A DNA stretch of 9,772 nucleotides from positions 1 through 9,772 of the forward strand of contig WJIO01000430.1 of the NCBI GenBank assembly GCA_014730235.1, given 5' to 3'. Shown here piece after piece: positions 1 through 9,772 of the stretch. Position 1 is the first letter of the stretch; the number at the start of each line of letters is the position of its first letter. The notes beneath the pieces are model-generated. The model made no database searches. It was not told where the DNA came from and worked only from the letters and a program-made list of their open reading frames with translations. The translations under genes and the position numbers were made by a program. Source of the stretch: Candidatus Poribacteria bacterium (lineage in GTDB: Bacteria; Poribacteria; DTPJ01; WJIO01).

Positions 1-163
1 AGTTTCAATCCCTTATAGGTATTCTATAAACAAAAGAAGACGAAGACGACATGGTAGAAGTATTCGCGTTTCAATCCCTTATAGGTATTCTATAAACAAA
101 CCAATTTGCAGACTCGTATATCTTGCCGGAAGGGTTTCAATCCCTTATAGGTATTCTATAAAC
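1..163 (-). CRISPR. Type I-B CRISPR array, leader-proximal end (continues off the left edge)
   Basis: Three identical 30-base repeats lie at 2-31, 68-97 and 134-163, separated by two 36-base spacers at 32-67 and 98-133. Position 1 is the last base of a further spacer, so the array is cut by the window. On the minus strand the repeat starts GTTTATAG and ends GATTGAAAC. It can form a 6-bp stem, TTATAG/CTATAA around an AATAC loop, followed by GGG and then the ATTGAAAC tag left on crRNAs by Cas6. This orientation means transcription runs leftward with the leader on the right, so the spacer at 98-133 is the most recently acquired. The repeat next to the leader is intact, as expected. In the plus direction the spacer at 32-67 can be read as a stop-free acidic peptide stretch, which would fit capture from a coding region, but its source is unknown. 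Confidence 0.98.
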
Positions 164-378: not shown

Positions 379-642
379 CTAAAGGATAAGACTTTGAGGA
401 GATTTTTCGATACCGATCACCGACCTGTTAAAATACCGGGTGGTTCTCAGTTCGTAAAATATGACAGAATCTTTGTCCTCATCAAGGGCCTGTTTCAGAG
501 CGGCTTTCAATCGCTCTAATCTGGCCTTTTCTATTTCCCCTTCAAAGACCGAGTTCTGAACCCAGTTAAGATACTGGCGGGATATTTTAAGGGCTTTAAC
601 CACCCTGGGTTGTTCCACATCGTAGACCATTACAACAAACAT
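379..642 (-). CDS. cas2: CRISPR-associated protein Cas2
   Basis: Cas2 is the small ferredoxin-like dimer that bridges two Cas1 dimers in the spacer-integration complex. The protein is 87 residues, within the normal family range, and begins MFVVMVYDV. The first beta strand ends in the conserved Asp (residue 8), followed by a helix rich in Arg and Lys as in other Cas2 proteins. I chose the ATG at 642: GGGAG ends six bases before it, whereas the in-frame ATG at 648 directly abuts GGGAG and is too close. Starting at 648 would add two residues. It follows cas1 by 33 bases and is the last gene before the CRISPR leader. No clear intrinsic terminator follows the stop codon, so operon transcripts may run into the leader. 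Confidence 0.95.
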   Translation of the reverse strand: MFVVMVYDVEQPRVVKALKISRQYLNWVQNSVFEGEIEKARLERLKAALKQALDEDKDSVIFYELRTTRYFNRSVIGIEKSPQSLIL

Positions 643-675
643 TATCATCTCCCAAAAATGTAAAACAGCATGCTG

Positions 676-1668
676 TTACCATGAAGCTATAAAGGGTTTA
701 TATTTTGCTTCGCCCAGAAGGTGCTTCTCCAGCTTGTAAAGCTCCAGCCGGATAAGCCTTTTATATGACACCTCTCGTTGAAGGGATGGATACTTTACCG
801 TTGTCTTCATCTTCTGGTCAAATTGAGTCAGAAACGTTATTCTACCCTTATCTTTCAGCATGATACCGCCGGTCTCGTCCTGGAAGTCCTTTGATGAGAT
901 CATCTTTTTATTCAGGAGGGTGAAGATCAATCGGTCAACTATCAAGGGTTTGAAGATTTCAGCCACATCCAGATTCAGGGAAAACCTGCGGAAGTTTGTG
1001 GTATGCAGGAAACCGATCCTGGGGTCAAGATGGGTTTTGTATATTTCGCTCAGAACGGTGGTATAGACCATGGAATTTCCGAAGCTGATAAGGGCGTTTA
1101 TCCTGTTGCGAGGTGGTCTTTTTGTCCGGGATTCAAAGGCAAATTCAGGGTCATCAACAATTGCGTCGAAAGCCCTGTAGTAATATTCCCGGGCATTGCC
1201 TTCTATGCCCATAAGGGCATCCACATCATCCATTTTCCCTGTCTGCTTCATCATTTCCTCTATACCTTTTGTCACATCAGAAAGCTCAGTTCCCCGACGG
1301 GCATAATAACTTAAAACCTTCGCCATGTTTTCCATGCCGCCCCGGACAAAGGATTTGGCTATCTCCAGACGGCTGGCCTGCTCTATGTAATGTTGAGCCT
1401 GCATTAACACCAGATGACCTGAATTCAGATGCTCCCGGGGGTAAAACGTGCCGGAGTAGTAACCGTAGTAGTTGAAGAAATGGACAGGTATGCCATTTTG
1501 GGACAGGAAATCCAGAAGCTTTTTGTTGATAGTCACCTCGCCAAAGACCATAATGTCCTGGGTATCCTGAATAGGTATATACTTCCTGCCTTTCTTCGTC
1601 TCAAAGTAGAGTGTATTGTCTTTACGCTTGAATTCGCCGCTGGAGGCCAGATATATTGTTTTTCTCAT
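676..1668 (-). CDS. cas1: CRISPR-associated endonuclease/integrase Cas1 (type I-B)
   Basis: Cas1 is the metal-dependent integrase that joins new spacers to the leader-end repeat. The 330-residue product starts MRKTIYLASSGEF, with the N-terminal beta domain at about residues 1-80 and the helical catalytic domain after it. The expected metal ligands are visible: Glu156 in ALMGIEGNAREYYY, His222 in GFLHTTNFRR, and the LNLDVAEIFKP motif with Asp234 and Glu237. Length and motif order are normal, with no sign of decay. It starts three bases after the cas4 stop. The ribosome binding site is weak (GGGTG just upstream), so translation is probably coupled to cas4. The cas4-cas1-cas2 block is the adaptation module. 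Confidence 0.97.
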   Translation of the reverse strand: MRKTIYLASSGEFKRKDNTLYFETKKGRKYIPIQDTQDIMVFGEVTINKKLLDFLSQNGIPVHFFNYYGYYSGTFYPREHLNSGHLVLMQAQHYIEQASRLEIAKSFVRGGMENMAKVLSYYARRGTELSDVTKGIEEMMKQTGKMDDVDALMGIEGNAREYYYRAFDAIVDDPEFAFESRTKRPPRNRINALISFGNSMVYTTVLSEIYKTHLDPRIGFLHTTNFRRFSLNLDVAEIFKPLIVDRLIFTLLNKKMISSKDFQDETGGIMLKDKGRITFLTQFDQKMKTTVKYPSLQREVSYKRLIRLELYKLEKHLLGEAKYKPFIASW

Positions 1669-1671
1669 TTT

Positions 1672-2178
1672 TTACACCCAACAAAAATCCCGGTAGCCGC
1701 ATGAAGAGCAATACTTGCACTTCTCAGGCTTCGGGGGTACATTTAAAGATACTATTGACTTAATTTCTCCGCATATTTTCTCAAGTTCTCCTTCCATCTC
1801 CGGGGTCAGTTCGATCTTCTCTTTACGCTTTTCGGAGGGAAAGCGAAGCTCCCCTACAGCTTCCAATCCAGCTTCCTTCAGCTTGGTCAGGTAAAAGGCA
1901 AGCTGCATGGTTGCGCTTTGTTTGAACCTGGAGCTTTTCTTTATCTCAGCTACAATGGTTTTTCCGTTATCATCGGTTATCACGTCCATCTTAACGCCGT
2001 CGAACTGTACCTCTTTCTTTTCTCTTTTATAGCTGGTTTCATGGATGAGTTTGCCTATGTCTATAAAGGGATTGTCCGAATCAGGCTCAAGGCCGTGGGC
2101 CATAAGCCATACCTCCCTCTTACAGATGTAATAGTACCATACCAGAGTGCCTGTGACGTTGAACGTTAAATTATCCAT
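1672..2178 (-). CDS. cas4: CRISPR-associated exonuclease Cas4 (RecB-like, Fe-S)
   Basis: Cas4 trims prespacers and helps choose those with a correct PAM during adaptation. The 168-residue protein has the RecB-type nuclease pattern: His46 in GKLIHE, Asp65 in VKMDV, the Glu78-Ile-Lys80 pair in AEIKK, and Gln92 in MQLAFYL. An iron-sulfur cluster is implied by Cys19 (YICKREVW) together with the C-terminal Cys157-x2-Cys160-x5-Cys166 pattern; Cys154 is an additional cysteine. The start is supported by GGAGG about seven bases upstream. The gene overlaps the cas3 stop by 13 bases and ends three bases before cas1, which fits a role alongside Cas1. Confidence 0.96.
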   Translation of the reverse strand: MDNLTFNVTGTLVWYYYICKREVWLMAHGLEPDSDNPFIDIGKLIHETSYKREKKEVQFDGVKMDVITDDNGKTIVAEIKKSSRFKQSATMQLAFYLTKLKEAGLEAVGELRFPSEKRKEKIELTPEMEGELEKICGEIKSIVSLNVPPKPEKCKYCSSCGYRDFCWV

Positions 2179-4622
2179 GTTGTATCCTCCGGTACTCGTT
2201 TAAACCCGGTGTCAATGCTGTAGTAATTTTCCAGAGCTTCTATGGGTAGTAAGAAAAAGTTCATGGATATGGGTACCAGTTCCGCCGCAAGCTCTTTAGG
2301 TAAGGATATTTTATATGAATGAAAATCGGCTTTCATCTCTGTGAAATTAAGCCTTTTTCTGTTAATATCCCGCTCTTTTATTACTTCCATCTGGTATCTT
2401 TCCCATAATTCAAGGGCTGAATCATCCACCTGGACGAAGACGTCAACCATATTGGGTAAGGATTCAATCAGAGCAAAGTCAGCTACGCACTTTTGGGTTT
2501 CGGAGCGAAAGCAAAGCCCACAGATGGCCTTCCATATATCCTTTGACTTCTGACTCGAAATTATCCTTTTTACATGGGCGAAGAAATCTTCCACCAGTTT
2601 ATGGTAATCTTCCTCTGAATGAATAACAGAATCAAGGGCTTCCCTGGCTGCATTGATAGAGCCGGGGCCATAGACATATTTGGCAAGACTCTGTTTTTTG
2701 TCATTTACAATGTTATATACATGGACATCAGACCTTGCTTTTTTTCCTGAACGGTTACACCTTCCGGCCACCTGAACGATGGAATCAATGGGCCCCAGGT
2801 CACGAATAACCATATCAAAATCAAGGTCAACACCAGCTTCTACCACCTGGGTGGAAACAAGTATGGGGTTTTCGCCGGAAATCAAAGCCTGGGAAACTTC
2901 TTCCACCCGCTGCCTGCGATGTCGGGGGATGATGTTTGACGAGAGGTAAAATGTGGGCCTGTCAAAAGCCGTTTCCTTTATCTTTTCATATAAATATAAC
3001 GAGGATTTTATAGTATTTGCCACCAGCATCAGGGATTTGTCATCCTGGCAAAGTCCCTCAAATTCCTGCACCATATCATCCAGAGATATTCCTTCCATGT
3101 TGGGCTTCAACTGGGTTCTTTGAAAATGGGCAAAATAACCTGAACTCCCTTCCAGAAGCTCAATACACTCTTCCTGATCAAAAAGCAGCGGCTTTGTAGC
3201 CGTTAGAAGTATGACGTAGCAGTTTAGCTCCCTGCATAAAGTCTTCAAGGAGTCGCTGACAAGCTGCCAGTATTCCACAGGTATATTTTGCACCTCGTCC
3301 AGAACTATTATAGAGCCTGCTATCTTGTGATATTTCTTCAGCCATCGGTTTCTGTAACCTATAACCGTCTGGAGAAGCTGGACAAAGGTAGTGACGATTA
3401 TTTCCGATTCCCAGCTTTCTATGAGCATTAAGGCGTTATCTGTCTCCATCTCCTGGTCTTTCCGCTTATATTCCACGTTGGACAGGTAATGGTGTTTCAG
3501 CAGGTATTCGCCCATGTTTGATGGGTAATCTTCCAGCATGGAAAGCACATCATCAGTGACCTGAAAATTCTGATCAATTATGCTGGTAAATGGCAGAGAG
3601 TATATGATCCTGGGGATATACCCCTGAGTATCTTCTATCCGGGTTCTGAGCTTAACTGCCGCTGACAGGGCCGATAAAGTTTTACCAGTGCCGGTAGGAG
3701 CGGTTAGAGTCATGATATGATGGGAGTTTATATCAATATTCTCAACAGCAGAACAGACCTTGTTGTATATCTCGTTCCTGATGCCATTTATACCCTCAGT
3801 TGCGGATGGATCGATCCTTGGTGAATTTTCCCTGAAATTATCCACCAGAGAAGATGGTAGGTTTCGCCTCTTTTGAGGAACTTCAGCATGGGCAGCGCTT
3901 TTCTTATCTGCGTCTATGAGTATGGAATAGGTTAGCAGGAGATATGTGTATGCTTCCACGCATATATTTTCATTCGCGTCATGCTGCAAACTGAACTTCA
4001 GCATGTCAATAGTATCCAGAAAATCCATCCAAGATTCTGCAAAATCCCTGATCCGGAAATTGCCAGACGGATATAAATCATCATAAATTTTCTGAATGGC
4101 TGGATAACGTTTCAGTATATCTTCTACCTGAATTTCCATATTTTTCATATTGTTAAGCTGGTTTGGCTCAAGCTTATTTATCCATGCGGGATCAAAACCA
4201 TCAGGCTGGATAATGTCTTTGTCCATATTCTCCAAATCACCGTGATGGTGGAGTATGCACAGGTAAGAAATAAGAGGTAGATACTTATCTACCCCATGAT
4301 TTATTTTCAATTCTGCCTTGTTTGTAAGATAAGCCGTGAACAGGGCAGATATAAAGCCATGATAGTGTTTTGTTCCATCACGTTTTCTATTTAAAAGGTA
4401 CTTCTGGAAATATGACGTAAACTTCCCAAAGTCATGTCCTATACATAGAACCTCCATCCATGATCTGAAGTTTTCATTCTCAGAAAACCTGGAAGGCATC
4501 TGAGATGCAACCCGTTGACCATGATTAATAACCTCTTTAAGATGTTGTTGCAATGTCTTTCGGCTGATAATTTCCCCTGTTTCATCCCTATGAATATGGG
4601 AATAAAACCGCACATCATTCAT
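2166..4622 (-). CDS. cas3: Cas3 helicase-nuclease (HD domain plus SF2 helicase)
   Basis: Cas3 is recruited by target-bound Cascade and unwinds and shreds the DNA. The 818-residue protein carries an N-terminal HD nuclease: His27 in LQQHL, the His63-Asp64 pair in GHDFGKF, the His125-127 cluster in LHHHGD, and Asp237/Asp239 in LIDADK. The SF2 helicase follows. Walker A is APTGTGKT (308-315), the Walker B box reads DEVQ (442-445) in place of DEAD/H, and motif III is TAT (474-476). The later motifs are STQVVEAGVDLDF (590-602) and QVAGRCNRSG (617-626). Both enzymatic halves look intact, so this should be a working single-chain Cas3. It overlaps the end of cas5 by eight bases (ATGAATGA), which suggests translational coupling, and it overlaps cas4 by 13 bases. 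Confidence 0.97.
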   Translation of the reverse strand: MNDVRFYSHIHRDETGEIISRKTLQQHLKEVINHGQRVASQMPSRFSENENFRSWMEVLCIGHDFGKFTSYFQKYLLNRKRDGTKHYHGFISALFTAYLTNKAELKINHGVDKYLPLISYLCILHHHGDLENMDKDIIQPDGFDPAWINKLEPNQLNNMKNMEIQVEDILKRYPAIQKIYDDLYPSGNFRIRDFAESWMDFLDTIDMLKFSLQHDANENICVEAYTYLLLTYSILIDADKKSAAHAEVPQKRRNLPSSLVDNFRENSPRIDPSATEGINGIRNEIYNKVCSAVENIDINSHHIMTLTAPTGTGKTLSALSAAVKLRTRIEDTQGYIPRIIYSLPFTSIIDQNFQVTDDVLSMLEDYPSNMGEYLLKHHYLSNVEYKRKDQEMETDNALMLIESWESEIIVTTFVQLLQTVIGYRNRWLKKYHKIAGSIIVLDEVQNIPVEYWQLVSDSLKTLCRELNCYVILLTATKPLLFDQEECIELLEGSSGYFAHFQRTQLKPNMEGISLDDMVQEFEGLCQDDKSLMLVANTIKSSLYLYEKIKETAFDRPTFYLSSNIIPRHRRQRVEEVSQALISGENPILVSTQVVEAGVDLDFDMVIRDLGPIDSIVQVAGRCNRSGKKARSDVHVYNIVNDKKQSLAKYVYGPGSINAAREALDSVIHSEEDYHKLVEDFFAHVKRIISSQKSKDIWKAICGLCFRSETQKCVADFALIESLPNMVDVFVQVDDSALELWERYQMEVIKERDINRKRLNFTEMKADFHSYKISLPKELAAELVPISMNFFLLPIEALENYYSIDTGFKRVPEDTTWII

Positions 4623-5400
4623 AATCTGTCTCCATAAAGGCTATATTTTTCCCCTTGATCCGAACAAAGGGCTTTGTCATTATGGCTCTGATGTTGCTAA
4701 GATTTTTTTCAAAGACAAAGCTGCCTGTGGCCCTGCTGGAACGGTCGGCGTTAAATTCTACAGGCATTATTTCTTTCAAATACTGGAGCATATTAACCCC
4801 GCTTTTAAACTCCAAACCTCTATCCGCTATTAGATCGGTGTTTATGACAGTGGCAAAATCCTGGTGTTGATCCGATTCCAGCACCTCTATGTCATCTCCA
4901 TGTATGTCGTCCACAGATTCCAGTTCTGCGATGAATTCAGATATACCCATGTATGGGGGATATACATATTTATTTTCTCTAACTCGCTTCGCTAAGTTGT
5001 CTAATATCCCCTGATCAGAATGCCATATATATATCCTGTAGACCAATTCCCCCCATTCTTTTAATCCTGATCCTGGTATCAGGGATTCAAATTGCACCTG
5101 TAGGGGATTTCCAGCTCGAACTACAAAGTCACTGCTGGACTTTGCCCACAGGTAATTTATAGTATTCATTATCTTTCTAAAAGGGGAGATAATGGACAGG
5201 GCGATCCTGCAACGCTCTTTGCTGAATTCCCGATAATAGCTGTCCCTGGGATACCCCATGATTCCGGCCAGAAGACCGGTAATTACGGTACGCGGCGGAA
5301 AGGAATATGTAAGGGACGACGAATTGGTATAAAAAGCTCTGAAGTGGGCCATAGCTCCATGCAGATCCATTACCAGTATTCGGTCTATGTTCTGTTCCAT
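4615..5400 (-). CDS. cas5: Cascade subunit Cas5 (type I-B)
   Basis: Cas5 is the RAMP-fold subunit that caps the 5' tag of the crRNA in Cascade. The 261-residue protein shows the family's N-terminal signature: a first strand ending DLHGAMAHFR (12-21), then YSFPPRTVITGLLAGIMG (32-49), the standard Cas5 FPP-T-GLL-G segment. The start is firm: GGAGG lies nine bases upstream of the ATG at 5400. It begins 18 bases after the cas7 stop and overlaps the start of cas3 by eight bases. Position, length and motif agree with the Cas5 of type I-B (Cas5b/Cas5h) operons. Confidence 0.95.
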   Translation of the reverse strand: MEQNIDRILVMDLHGAMAHFRAFYTNSSSLTYSFPPRTVITGLLAGIMGYPRDSYYREFSKERCRIALSIISPFRKIMNTINYLWAKSSSDFVVRAGNPLQVQFESLIPGSGLKEWGELVYRIYIWHSDQGILDNLAKRVRENKYVYPPYMGISEFIAELESVDDIHGDDIEVLESDQHQDFATVINTDLIADRGLEFKSGVNMLQYLKEIMPVEFNADRSSRATGSFVFEKNLSNIRAIMTKPFVRIKGKNIAFMETDYE

Positions 5401-5418
5401 AGGAACATACCTCCAGAA

Positions 5419-6438
5419 CTAATCTATGATTTCCATTTTTTCGCTTAAACCAGCCGATGATATATCTTTTAACTTACCTTTGTTTCCGTTGCAGATAAGT
5501 ATCAGATCATCATCTTGCCAAAACCTTATAGTATTTATCTTTTCTTTATTCTTTAACAGCTTTTTATCCAGTTCCGATATATCTAGGATAACTTCCGATA
5601 CATCCCTTAATCCTTCTTCTTTATCGACTTTTACATATCTGCGTAAGTCTCCCAGAAGGGTTTCATCATCTTTATACTCCACTCGAACAATGAGTCTGGG
5701 GTACTGACCTATTTTGCTCCTGGTGGCCTGAAGGGGTATGGCTTTGATCAGTGCCTCTTCCAGCTTTTTTACATCGTCATCTTTCATATTTGTCTTTTCA
5801 CCCCGACTGGCTGATACCACGCCATGAAAAGCTAGAAGAGAATAATATAAACGGTAATCCTTGCCCATAGCGCCGTATTCATCACCTTCGCCCTTGGTTC
5901 TTCCTGCGAAGGTGGAGGTTATGGTGTTGGAGTATACCGGTTCAACTTTGTTTAATGAATATCCCCAATTAAATTGAACAGGACCCGTAAAGGTAAACGA
6001 AGAACCTTTCTTTTCATCTTTTATTGGCATAGTAGCGCCAAAGGTCCTGACATCAATGAATCCTCTCAATATCTCCGCTTCGGAAGCTATTAACTTAACT
6101 ATATCACTAGCCGAAGGCTTTTTGCCTGATTCCAATGCTTTTTCTATTTTGTCAGCTTGTTTGATACTATCATTATCGGAACTTTCCCGGGCTTTCTGGC
6201 AAACCCAATAAGCCAGGCGAGTTGTCGCATCTACGGTTTTTTCATCTACCGTAGCCACAAATATATTTTCACCTTTATTCTGCCAGTAATCTCTTATGTA
6301 TCTCTTCAACCTTACATCAGTTACCAGATTGCGAGATGTCTCCACATCCATCCGGGGACGGTTCTCATCATCAGGATCACCATTAGGGTTACACATCTTG
6401 GCATCGTAGATAAACAGTATGTCGCTATTGTGGATCAT
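5419..6438 (-). CDS. cas7: Cascade backbone Cas7 (Csh2 type)
   Basis: Cas7 polymerises along the crRNA spacer to form the Cascade backbone. The product begins MIHNSDILFIYDAKMCNPNG and continues DPDDENRPRMD, followed by RNLVTDVRLKRYIRDY. This is the recognisable N-terminus of the Csh2/Cas7 group of type I-B systems. I placed the start at 6438 (339 residues): AGGAG lies about ten bases upstream, homologous proteins as I recall begin close to this point, and the overlap with cas8b becomes 14 bases, the same size as the open-frame overlap between cas6 and cas8b. An in-frame ATG at 6465 with AGGTGA upstream would add nine basic residues (MKQKRSKRN) and cannot be excluded. Confidence 0.95.
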   Translation of the reverse strand: MIHNSDILFIYDAKMCNPNGDPDDENRPRMDVETSRNLVTDVRLKRYIRDYWQNKGENIFVATVDEKTVDATTRLAYWVCQKARESSDNDSIKQADKIEKALESGKKPSASDIVKLIASEAEILRGFIDVRTFGATMPIKDEKKGSSFTFTGPVQFNWGYSLNKVEPVYSNTITSTFAGRTKGEGDEYGAMGKDYRLYYSLLAFHGVVSASRGEKTNMKDDDVKKLEEALIKAIPLQATRSKIGQYPRLIVRVEYKDDETLLGDLRRYVKVDKEEGLRDVSEVILDISELDKKLLKNKEKINTIRFWQDDDLILICNGNKGKLKDISSAGLSEKMEIID

Positions 6439-6859
6439 ATTCCTCTTGCTCCTCTTCTGTTTCATTTACACTTTCACCTTTTGCCCGTTGTCGTCGGTAT
6501 GAATAACCGGAAAGTATGTAAAAAACATTTTCCTGATCGTCCAAAGGCCAGTCGTTAATGTATAAATCCAGCAGTCGTTTAAATGCTGAAAATATAGATT
6601 TATTATATTTCAACACCTTGTATTGCTTCAGCTTTTCGAATATCTCATTGGTTAGCCTCAATAGTCTTCTGGCGTCTATTCCCTGGTAATTAAGCTTTTC
6701 CAGGATAGGTTCTTTGCCCCCCTGCCTATAGCCAATCTCTCTGATAAGGTTGCCCATCAGGAACATGGCTGTTCTAGTATCGTCGTAGCCCATCTCGGTT
6801 ACGAATTCCTGCATTCTGTCATCGTCCAGACCGATTGATTTCAGGTCTACTTCTGACAT
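6425..6859 (-). CDS. cas11b: Cascade small subunit Cas11b, internal translation within cas8b
   Basis: Type I-B, I-C and I-D systems are known to make the small subunit Cas11 from an internal start near the 3' end of the large-subunit gene. Such a start is plainly visible here. A near-perfect Shine-Dalgarno AAAGGAGG (6874-6867) lies seven bases before an in-frame ATG (6859-6857). The product is 144 residues, begins MSEVDLKSIGLDDDRMQ, and looks mainly helical with no cysteine, as expected for Cas11. It would line the belly of Cascade and steady the displaced strand. It shares the stop codon and acidic tail of cas8b. The start site is seen in the sequence; function is inferred from the family precedent. 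Confidence 0.85.
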   Translation of the reverse strand: MSEVDLKSIGLDDDRMQEFVTEMGYDDTRTAMFLMGNLIREIGYRQGGKEPILEKLNYQGIDARRLLRLTNEIFEKLKQYKVLKYNKSIFSAFKRLLDLYINDWPLDDQENVFYILSGYSYRRQRAKGESVNETEEEQEEYDPQ

Positions 6860-8383
6860 ATATTTTCCTCCTTTCAACAACTCCAACTTCCTAAGATATA
6901 ACATGAATAGGTTGCATTCCATTACTGCCATACTCATTTCCCACAAAGGGTTACCCTCTGTATTTATATTGAATATGGAAAATTTCTCAAATTTGTATAT
7001 CCTTATGAGTTCAGTAAATTGCCTTATCATAGAATAATATGAAACTTCCCCACCGGAGAGAATATTTGAGTATAAAACCAGTAAATCTTTATATGCTTTA
7101 GGAGCGCCCTTTGAAATTCTTATAGGTGTCAAAAAATATATTTTGCCCAAATCTATATTCCAAGAGTTTGATTCTCTCAATAACTTTTTGCCTATAATAC
7201 CAATATCGTTTGTCGTTTTCGTTAATGTTCTAAGTCTTATTGGGTTAACATCCTTAACGCATCTAAGGATCCTGAATTCGCTATTGTTTTCCTGGTAAAA
7301 GAGAAAATTCAATGTATAGCTGTTTTTATATGATTCCTGATATTTAAGATAACTTTGTAATAACCCATTAAATTTATTCATCCCTTTGAAATTCTTGGCA
7401 GCGTTAAAACTGAATATTACATAATCACCAAAACCATCTATATCTTCCGATGACATTTTTACATTGAATAAAAATTTTGGAATAACGTAGACTTGAAATC
7501 TACCCATGGCTGTTTTCATCTTGTTCTGTATAAAATTCTCGCCGGCAGAAAGATACATATAGCAAGGTTTACAAAAGCTGAAATTTTTACTGAAATCCTT
7601 CTCAAATCTCGATGAAAAGCTGATTTTATCCTTTATATAATATTTAAATTTTAGTTTTGCCACATCATAGGAAAGGTTTGATTCATTATGACATACAAAA
7701 CATTTAGCCTGATAAGTGTCATCAAAATCAGGAAGAAGGTTTTCCTGCATCAGGAAATTTTTGTAATCTGTAGATTGAGCCAAATTTTCTCCGTCAAGAA
7801 AAACAGTATACAAACCTATCTCCGAATCTCCAAGTTGCCGTTGGGATTCTATATATTTTTGTGTTTCATCTGAGACAATCTGAGCAACATCCTTTGCGCT
7901 TATATCCTCATTTTGTACCATTTCCCTTTGTTGATATAGATTCATTTCTGTATTAATGCCGCACTTGACGATATCCAAAACATATCTATAACGTCTCTGT
8001 TGACCTGGTATATCACCCAGATCAAGGAAATAATTATTTATTATACAATCAAGTTTTTTCCAGAGTTCCCAATCTTCGTTAAGTTCATCCTTCAGAGACG
8101 ATATAGATTGAGATACCAGGTAAGATAAATTGTCACTTGACAAACGCTTTTGAGTATCAGAACCTTTTGCATTACCTATCCATAGATATTTATGGGCTGT
8201 CTGATCATCTATCTCCTCCTCGTAAAATTTCAACTGATCTCCTGTGCTGCTGAAATCCATTATCGCTACATGCTGCTTTTTGTTTTTAACCTCAGCTTTT
8301 AGATCTTTCACCAGAAAATCAAGATACCTGCTTTGATCCCCTGCCATCAATATTTCGCCTATCTGGGCAATTCCTTCAATCAT
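6425..8383 (-). CDS. cas8b: Cascade large subunit Cas8b (Csh1/TM1802 type)
   Basis: Cas8b recognises the PAM and helps open the target DNA. The 652-residue protein is assigned from its place between cas6 and cas7, its size, and a four-cysteine zinc-finger-like pair: AKCFVCH and, about 40 residues on, SFCKPC (Cys228, 231, 271 and 274 from the start used here). That arrangement is typical of Csh1/Cas8b proteins. The rest is too divergent for residue-level claims. The C-terminus ends in an acidic tail. AAGGG sits about ten bases before the ATG at 8383 but only four before the ATG at 8389, so I prefer 8383; the longer form adds two residues. The stretch past the zinc finger is notably AT-rich. 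The last 144 codons also encode Cas11b from an internal start. Confidence 0.9.
   Translation of the reverse strand: MIEGIAQIGEILMAGDQSRYLDFLVKDLKAEVKNKKQHVAIMDFSSTGDQLKFYEEEIDDQTAHKYLWIGNAKGSDTQKRLSSDNLSYLVSQSISSLKDELNEDWELWKKLDCIINNYFLDLGDIPGQQRRYRYVLDIVKCGINTEMNLYQQREMVQNEDISAKDVAQIVSDETQKYIESQRQLGDSEIGLYTVFLDGENLAQSTDYKNFLMQENLLPDFDDTYQAKCFVCHNESNLSYDVAKLKFKYYIKDKISFSSRFEKDFSKNFSFCKPCYMYLSAGENFIQNKMKTAMGRFQVYVIPKFLFNVKMSSEDIDGFGDYVIFSFNAAKNFKGMNKFNGLLQSYLKYQESYKNSYTLNFLFYQENNSEFRILRCVKDVNPIRLRTLTKTTNDIGIIGKKLLRESNSWNIDLGKIYFLTPIRISKGAPKAYKDLLVLYSNILSGGEVSYYSMIRQFTELIRIYKFEKFSIFNINTEGNPLWEMSMAVMECNLFMLYLRKLELLKGGKYMSEVDLKSIGLDDDRMQEFVTEMGYDDTRTAMFLMGNLIREIGYRQGGKEPILEKLNYQGIDARRLLRLTNEIFEKLKQYKVLKYNKSIFSAFKRLLDLYINDWPLDDQENVFYILSGYSYRRQRAKGESVNETEEEQEEYDPQ
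6867..6874 (-). promoter_or_regulatory. Internal Shine-Dalgarno for Cas11b
   Basis: AAAGGAGG inside cas8b is the best match to the anti-Shine-Dalgarno sequence that I see anywhere in the operon, and it lies seven bases from an in-frame ATG. Within Cas8b it encodes the Lys-Gly-Gly-Lys segment just before Tyr-Met. A site this strong inside a coding region supports separate translation of the small subunit. Confidence 0.85.
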
Positions 8384-9131
8384 CTGCATTATCCCTTTTT
8401 AGAAATTTAAAACACCCAAAACCTTGTGAGTTCTTACTGCCTATACCTGCCTCGTGTCCTACCTTTATCAGTGCGGGATTTCCCTGAAGGGAATAGACTC
8501 CCCTCCAGGCCTTTATGACAGTGCCTTTATATTTCAGTATTTTTTCAGACCTTTTATCTACTTTCAAAGGATTTATTGTAAGAGTATAGCTTTCATCCGG
8601 TTCCGTTCCTGTAATAACGGCATATTTCTTTTTCAGGTTATTCTCTATAAGCTGTGAGAATTCATCCTCAAAGGGGGAATAATAGTATGTCTTGTTTTTG
8701 CCCTCCCCTGTTTTCAGGGTGCTGTAGACCGTTACAGGGGATAACATTCCTATTACTTCCGATTCATTGGGTTCTGTTTCTTCCGGCACGTCAAAACTGC
8801 TTACTCTCACAGGGTTAACGCCCAGGTTTAAATCATCCCGCACCATCATAAAGTATCCCAACTGCTGTATGAAATCATCCATAGGACTGCTTATGACCAG
8901 CTTAATCGGCGGCGAGAAGATTATATCGCTATTTGTCAGCCTGTATCTGCCGTTGATATTGGAAAATGTAAACATCTTAAAGCTGCGTTTGCCGTATGTA
9001 AATCCCGTATCATGAAGGTACCGGGCAAGCTCCGGGCTTATGTTGTTGTAGATCATCCCCTGTATAACAGAATTGTAGTGAATTGGCAGTCTGATTTCAC
9101 CCTCAGAATCCAGAGATATTTCAATTCTCAT
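8376..9131 (-). CDS. cas6: crRNA-processing endoribonuclease Cas6 (type I-B)
   Basis: Cas6 cuts the repeat RNA to leave the 8-base ATTGAAAC tag on each crRNA. The 251-residue protein has two RAMP halves. The strongest signature is the C-terminal glycine-rich loop GHEAGIGSKNSQGFGCFKF (about 226-244), matching the Cas6 G-loop. Near the N-terminus, His40 in ARYLHDTGF is the likely catalytic histidine, with Lys48 and Lys52 (GKRSFKMFTFS) as possible partners; this assignment is by analogy with other Cas6 proteins. The start is supported by AGGA eight bases upstream. It is the first gene of the operon, about 116 bases after the predicted transcription start, and its end overlaps the open frame of cas8b by 14 bases if the ATG at 8389 is used (8 bases with 8383). 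Confidence 0.95.
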   Translation of the reverse strand: MRIEISLDSEGEIRLPIHYNSVIQGMIYNNISPELARYLHDTGFTYGKRSFKMFTFSNINGRYRLTNSDIIFSPPIKLVISSPMDDFIQQLGYFMMVRDDLNLGVNPVRVSSFDVPEETEPNESEVIGMLSPVTVYSTLKTGEGKNKTYYYSPFEDEFSQLIENNLKKKYAVITGTEPDESYTLTINPLKVDKRSEKILKYKGTVIKAWRGVYSLQGNPALIKVGHEAGIGSKNSQGFGCFKFLKRDNADD

Positions 9132-9225
9132 TTTTACATTCCTGTATTTTAGATACGAAATGGTAGTATATAGCCACTTTATATAGTTGCATTATCGGTT
9201 GATTTAGTGAATAGCTTTAGGGAAG

Positions 9226-9240
9226 GTTTATTTAATAAAC
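9226..9240. promoter_or_regulatory. Operator-like palindrome in the cas 5' region
   Basis: GTTTATTTAATAAAC is a perfect palindrome with seven-base arms and one central base. It lies just downstream of the predicted cas transcription start (about 9247). The single-base centre cannot form an RNA loop with full pairing, so a dimeric DNA-binding regulator is the likelier reader. No regulator gene is in the window. Confidence 0.45.
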
Positions 9241-9253
9241 ACATTCTTGCCGC

Positions 9254-9282
9254 ATTATAAAAATTTCAGTAAAACAAATCAA
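9254..9282 (-). promoter_or_regulatory. Main promoter of the cas operon
   Basis: On the minus strand there is a -35 TTGATT (9282-9277), a 17-base spacer and a perfect -10 TATAAT (9259-9254). Transcription would start near 9247, leaving about 116 bases of untranslated leader before cas6. The -35 box lies inside the degenerate left copy of the 37-base repeat (9276-9312), so the promoter and the repeat relic share bases. Confidence 0.75.
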
Positions 9283-9384
9283 TATCCTTCGCGGATCGAG
9301 TATCACCTCAAGAAAGTATGAATTATCGTGATATTTATTTGAGATATGTTTCAATATCCTTTACGGATCGAGTACCACCTCAAG
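9276..9384 (-). CRISPR. Relic or regulatory mini-CRISPR: two diverged 37-base repeats and one 35-base spacer
   Basis: Two 37-base copies lie at 9348-9384 and 9276-9312, starting 72 bases apart and differing at six positions. On the minus strand the right copy begins CTTGAGGTGG and ends GGATATTGAAAC. It contains a stem ATCC/GGAT around a five-base loop, directly before the ATTGAAAC tag. In the left copy two changes fall in that loop, leaving the stem intact, and three hit the tag, which reads ATTGATTT. Intact first repeat, degenerate last repeat, a repeat-spacer size of 37+35 and the crRNA tag all fit a leftward mini-array. The repeat is clearly different from the main array's 30-base repeat. 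Alternatives are a tandem protein-binding site or a fragment of another repeat family. Confidence 0.55.
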
Positions 9385-9404
9385 AGCTGGGCTTCCAGAG
9401 TCGC

Positions 9405-9433
9405 ATGATAACTGGCTTTAGCATAGGCAAAAA
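9405..9433 (-). promoter_or_regulatory. Weak candidate promoter for the mini-CRISPR
   Basis: A -10-like TATCAT (9410-9405) has a poor -35 match TTTTTG (9433-9428) at 17 bases. Transcription would start near 9398, about 14 bases before the first 37-base repeat. The -35 overlaps the U-tract of the terminator. The position is apt, but the match is weak. Confidence 0.25.
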
Positions 9434-9467
9434 CGTAGGGGTCTGCAAAACACCCCTGACCCCTACG
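9429..9467 (-). terminator. Intrinsic terminator, leftward
   Basis: On the minus strand CGTAGGGGTC (9467-9458) pairs perfectly with GACCCCTACG (9443-9434) around a 14-base loop, and five T residues (9433-9429) follow at once. This is a standard Rho-independent terminator for leftward transcription. A second GACCCCTACG at 9523-9514 can pair with the same 5' arm instead, which would prevent the terminator from forming. Confidence 0.7.
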
Positions 9468-9671
9468 GCCAGAGCACCTGAAAAATGCCGTAAAACCGCA
9501 TGAATAAAGGCTACGTAGGGGTCGCGTCCTGTTAAAGCTGCATTTAACCCTGTCACAGCAAGGCTTTATACCACTTTTCCACACTCTTTTCATGACTTGT
9601 CTCTGACCCCCGCGTGTTAAATAAAAATTGGTTAAATAAGGTTAAACTTATAAAAACTTATCCGGTTTGCA
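9429..9671 (-). ncRNA. Candidate noncoding transcript upstream of the cas operon
   Basis: A strong leftward promoter (9706-9678) and an intrinsic terminator (9467-9429) bracket about 240 bases with no convincing gene. The segment contains alternating GGGGTC and GACCCC elements at 9610-9605, 9523-9518, 9463-9458 and 9443-9438. These can form either a 1:2 plus 3:4 arrangement, with 3:4 the terminator, or a 2:3 hairpin. It may be a small RNA, an attenuated leader, or a fragment of a repetitive element. I do not recognise a known RNA family. Confidence 0.35.
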
Positions 9672-9677
9672 TAACCT

Positions 9678-9706
9678 ATTATAAAATATTCGCTACAAAA
9701 ATTCAA
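9678..9706 (-). promoter_or_regulatory. Near-consensus leftward promoter, no gene attached
   Basis: On the minus strand there is a -35 TTGAAT (9706-9701), a 17-base spacer and a perfect TATAAT (9683-9678). The start would be near 9671. The only substantial open frame downstream (80 codons from 9593) lacks a ribosome binding site, so the transcript is probably noncoding or ends at the 9467-9429 terminator. Confidence 0.6.
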
Positions 9707-9772
9707 GCAGAAAATCAGTCTAAAATTGTGCTGACACAGCGCCAAAGCCATAGGTGATACACTTGCCTACAC

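Follow-up and report, generated by a model that had tools for sequence, protein, structure and literature searches.

A two-repeat mini-CRISPR ahead of a type I-B cas operon in a poribacterial genome belongs, by its sequence, to a resident type III repeat family

Does a small unit of clustered regularly interspaced short palindromic repeats (CRISPR) that lies directly ahead of a cas operon regulate that operon, or does it have another origin? The question is raised by a stretch of 9,772 nucleotides (nt) from a Candidatus Poribacteria bacterium (assembly GCA_014730235.1, contig WJIO01000430.1). This stretch, here called the window, is the whole of contig C377 in a 5.53-Mb, 451-contig assembly, and carries a type I-B cas operon. 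A first-pass annotation made from the sequence alone had described two repeats just upstream of that operon as a mini-CRISPR of a different repeat family, which might yield a regulatory RNA of the CreR type or an antitoxin of the CreTA type, or might be the relic of a lost array. The wider genome points elsewhere: the repeats match those of a type III array on another contig, and the most probable reading of the unit is an ordinary satellite array or a relic rather than a novel regulatory RNA.

The mini-array consists of two 38-nt repeats, R1 and R2 (32/38 identical), around a 34-nt spacer, and occupies positions 9276-9385 of the minus strand. It lies upstream of cas6, on the strand that it shares with that gene, and 144 bp separate R2 from the cas6 ATG. 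Direct repeats flank a non-repeated spacer, the start-to-start distance of the repeats is 72 nt, and the spacer length and this spacing are typical of a CRISPR array. The pairing of R1 and R2 is not due to chance, since they agree at 32 of 35 positions in the best 35-nt window and 200 shuffles of 9132-9600 gave at most 24. The two-copy unit is thus real, although the lengths first assigned to it (37-base copies and a 35-base spacer) have to be corrected to 38 and 34 nt, with a boundary that is ambiguous by 1.

The same two folds are predicted in both repeats: a GAGG/CUC(G) hairpin, and an AUCC-(5 nt)-GGAU hairpin directly before the terminal tag. In R1 this tag is ATTGAAAC, the same 8 nt that end the I-B repeat in the array at 2-163, so that the small stem and I-B-like tag ascribed to the upstream copy are indeed present. 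The shared tag also qualifies the statement that the repeats have no overall identity with the main 30-base repeat: the families differ, but the two are not wholly unlike, since both end in ATTGAAAC. R1 and R2 differ at six positions: three are the last bases of the tag, two lie in the loop of the second hairpin and one in that of the first; as had been noticed, the changes in the second copy spare the stems and erode the tag. The case for structure rests on this pattern of changes and not on folding energy, for the fold z-scores of the repeats are no more than modest (-0.55 to -1.25).

The origin of the repeat is indicated by the rest of the genome. Apart from the mini-array itself, a search with 9240-9440 returned just two places, each on contig C410, and a pattern search that tolerated up to 3 mismatches added a single, chance-like place. 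The C410 array (126-309 of the locus, plus strand) has three copies and two spacers at a spacing of 73-74 nt. Its first copy is degenerate in the 5' half, its best copy (C410:272-307) is 97% identical to R1 over 36 nt, and its last copy, too, has an eroded tag end. The array stands just upstream, on the same strand, of a sigma-70-like gene and then an operon with Cas10, a Csm3-like repeat-associated mysterious protein (RAMP), Csx10 and another RAMP, which is truncated where the contig ends. Since the repeat recurs beside type III genes, the mini-array is, by sequence, a one-spacer array of the resident type III repeat family. Descent from the I-B repeat was rejected, as that repeat has mainly the tag in common with R1 and R2. 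A dispersed non-CRISPR repeat, one outcome that the annotation had named as its own refutation, was likewise rejected: in 5.5 Mb the repeat recurs nowhere but in the three-copy C410 array beside the type III operon. The annotation was therefore right to propose a CRISPR-type unit from another repeat family, with a tag preceded by a Cas6-like hairpin.

Table 1. Positions of the mini-array, the I-B locus and candidate control sites in the window
Feature	Position	Strand	Details
First repeat, R1	9385-9348	-	TCTTGAGGTGGTACTCGATCCGTAAAGGATATTGAAAC; member of type III family; tag preceded by AUCC-GUAAA-GGAU hairpin
R1 tag	9355-9348	-	ATTGAAAC; 3' end of R1
Single spacer	9347-9314	-	ATATCTCAAATAAATATCACGATAATTCATACTT; 34 nt, 79% AT
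Terminal repeat, R2	9313-9276	-	TCTTGAGGTGATACTCGATCCGCGAAGGATATTGATTT; changed in loops but not in stems; eroded tag ATTGATTT
Sigma-70-like promoter candidate for cas operon	9254..9282	-	TTGATT, 17 nt, TATAAT
Candidate guide target, cas6 5' region	9145..9156	-	TTC then GTATCTAAAATA; matches 10/12 of spacer positions 1-12 (all but 1 and 7)
cas6, type I-B operon	8376..9131	-	TIGR01877, E 4.7e-42
Remaining I-B operon: cas8b/csh1, cas7/csh2, cas5, cas3, cas4, cas1, cas2	379..8389	-	Profile matches
Main I-B array, contig-end part	2..163	-	Three identical 30-nt repeats GTTTATAGAATACCTATAAGGGATTGAAAC

The favoured explanation, more likely than not, is that the mini-array is a minimal one-spacer satellite array of a III-D-like repeat family, now upstream of the I-B cas6 and still equipped with the parts for one CRISPR RNA (crRNA). 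Beyond anatomy, orientation and family identity with the C410 array, which are direct observations, we infer transcription, cutting, loading and targeting. The mini-array would be transcribed leftward, with or ahead of the cas operon, and one of the genome's Cas6 proteins would cut each repeat 3' of its GGAU stem. This would free one crRNA with the handle AUUGAAAC and a 34-nt guide, for which R2 would need its stem alone. The crRNA might then enter a type III complex, or I-B Cascade, against some mobile element; loading into I-B Cascade is conceivable because the 8-nt handle is identical.

Several observations weigh against the satellite array. The Csx10 match to TIGR02674 reaches 95 bits, below the curated cut-off of 177, and the operon is called 'III-D-like' for this reason. 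Contig C410 stops within the type III operon, and the Cas6 of that operon is not seen on the contig. No shared leader of the two arrays was found, as their flanks align no better than shuffles (125 nt of C410 flank). No convincing protospacer turned up in phage records or viral contigs. Lastly, the position and direction of the unit, just ahead of the cas promoter, would also suit a regulator.

Other searches for relatives of the spacer and the repeat were similarly negative. Within the genome the spacer occurs once, even when up to 3 mismatches are allowed; its exact 21-nt core is absent from IMG/VR, and a 16-nt piece of it occurs there at 19 places, which is about chance level. As for conservation of the mini-array, none of 84 genomes of the phylum contained the repeat. 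The exact core was absent from genome_contigs and viral_contigs, collections from which records very near the source genome may be left out, and 9130-9600 matched nothing among phages and plasmids. An Rfam scan gave nothing in 9100-9772 and, on C410, just a sub-threshold CRISPR-DR10 match (15.9 bits vs 39).

In the genome, Cas6 families are represented by one PF01881 match, the I-B one, and by seven further PF10040 matches. Given these seven matches and many RAMP genes on several contigs, type III machinery is, as judged from family assignments, plentiful. The seven further matches lessen the worry that the resident Cas6 may not cut the stem. There are two full-length cas1 genes, one in the window and one on C357.

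The C410 locus has further features of its own. The sigma-70-like gene (536-1153) is flanked by the type III mini-array on one side and the Cas10 operon on the other, all on the same strand. A small gene (4918-5487) that follows Csx10 and precedes the last RAMP gene carries short in-frame tandem duplications (RDLMGSIDG, EFLLRVTE) and has no family match. Small arrays recur in the genome, which fits the satellite reading: other two-copy arrays occur on C128 and C388. The C128 array (L054 1305-1420, minus strand) has two copies of another repeat, with the last tag eroded, and its spacer is an intrinsic-terminator-like hairpin (GGGAGC-CATAA-GCTCCC-TTTTTT, -11.2 kcal/mol). It lies about 45 bp ahead of a gene tentatively read as CARF-like. 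The C388 array (L049 1-115), at a contig end, has two copies of a further repeat ending in ATTGAAAC/ATTGATAC, beside a PF10040 Cas6 and RAMP genes, and on C422 (L052, around 1000, minus strand) one repeat-like AGTAGACCCGACTTCAAGGGGATTGAAAC is followed by a truncated second copy. Contig breaks at arrays could conceal longer arrays.

The mini-array might instead be dead, the remains of a lost type III array that is neither transcribed nor processed. This is a serious rival, if a somewhat unlikely one. It is consistent with the single spacer, the eroded last tag and the lack of a leader shared with the C410 array. However, the Cas6-type stems of both repeats have stayed intact, as has the first tag, and the changes lie in loops and the terminal tag; this argument from selection is itself limited, as six changes are too few as proof. 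Absence from relatives also fits a relic: no such unit precedes cas6 in the two closest relatives found (cas6 identities of 56% and 42%), and no array of this repeat lies beside cas6 in the other 17 loci scanned. Since these two relatives are distant, their lack of the unit says little about function. The earlier suggestion of a relic comes close to the favoured verdict of satellite array or relic.

Regulation of the CreR type would involve a crRNA-like RNA that, by means of the shared AUUGAAAC handle, leads I-B Cascade to the 5' region of cas6 and so represses the cas operon. In known CreR systems, the RNA directs Cascade or Cas12a to the promoter of its cognate cas genes (review PMC12737573). 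The unit is positioned and oriented directly ahead of the cas promoter, and the 8-nt tag is identical in both repeat families. A 10/12 seed match at 9156-9145 is flanked by TTC, which is among 11 reported I-B protospacer adjacent motifs (PAMs; PMC8482600), and shuffled spacers reach such a match in 0.22% of cases with TTC and 5.0% without. However, this PAM was assumed post hoc, TTC being noted after the match was seen, and I-B PAMs are diverse. The seed is mismatched at positions 1 and 7, with no notable pairing past position 12, and the full-length spacer match to 9132-9275 (19/34, p 0.21-0.26) is not significant. A genome scan for TTC and the 12-nt seed with up to 2 mismatches found 39 places, one of them a better match than 9156-9145; the reversed pattern gave 56. 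The repeats, moreover, come from the type III family and not from the cognate I-B repeat.

A 10/12 seed match occurred in 32 of 327 overlapping AT-matched segments of the genome's own contigs examined; the two of these segments with TTC must hold the 9156-9145 site itself, the sole TTC-flanked one in those contigs. When seven spacers were compared with five promoter or leader regions (35 tests), no guide match stood out. The 9156-9145 match is consequently weak, a suggestive, post hoc lead only. CreR-type regulation keeps in its favour the position ahead of the cas genes, but with repeats not derived from I-B and no significant overall match to the cas6 promoter it is improbable. A cross-type form, in which a guide RNA with type III repeats would enter I-B Cascade through the AUUGAAAC handle and repress the I-B cas operon through 9156-9145, is a shade more doubtful still. 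If true, it would tie the expression of the I-B system to repeats that belong to another CRISPR system.

The -35 hexamer of the candidate cas promoter falls inside the eroded R2 tag. Promoter-like sites of this kind are not above chance (2 found vs 2.0 expected). The notion that erosion of the R2 tag created the -35 box is unconvincing, as an intact tag would yield TTGAAA, a better -35. Similar 29-nt stretches (76%) at 9254-9282 and 9678-9706 on the minus strand each contain TTGAWT-17-TATAAT, again in a number not above chance.

For a CreTA-type antitoxin guide that guards the I-B locus, there speaks the arrangement of two repeat copies around one guide near the cas operon. In CreTA, however, the CreA repeats are extensively degenerated (PMC9458426), whereas the repeats here are nearly intact relative to the type III array. 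The guide has no significant match to the neighbouring promoter, and no toxin unit was recognised between array and cas6, though small toxin RNAs were not the object of a systematic search. This part of the annotation is not supported, and the idea is barely credible.

An apparent regulatory mini-CRISPR can thus be explained by searching the rest of the genome: the foreign-looking repeat is that of a second resident system. If the satellite array is active, an array of one CRISPR type would operate inside the locus of another, and the common crRNA handle would permit guide sharing.

Like the mini-array, the haloarchaeal type I-B CreTA (PMC9458426) has a short guide between two repeat copies, close to a I-B locus, but its degenerated repeats derive from the linked system, and no counterpart of its toxin unit is recognised here. 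CreR units (PMC12737573) also lie ahead of a cas operon with two repeats around one guide, but the repeats here are not those of the cognate system and the promoter match is weak and post hoc. Type I-B and type III systems with distinct repeats and shared acquisition machinery are documented (PMC8482600). Similarly, cas1-cas2-cas4 sit in the I-B locus here, but any sharing is inferred, a second cas1 lies on C357 and the type III locus is incomplete. In Marinomonas, a type III system is reported to use type I crRNAs (PMC5576922). The closest counterpart is in the same genome. The C410 type III array differs in having three copies and two spacers, in preceding sigma-factor and type III genes rather than a I-B cas6, and in its unrelated spacers and flanks, but shares with the mini-array the repeat, the hairpins, the ATTGAAAC tag, a similar spacing and an eroded last tag end.
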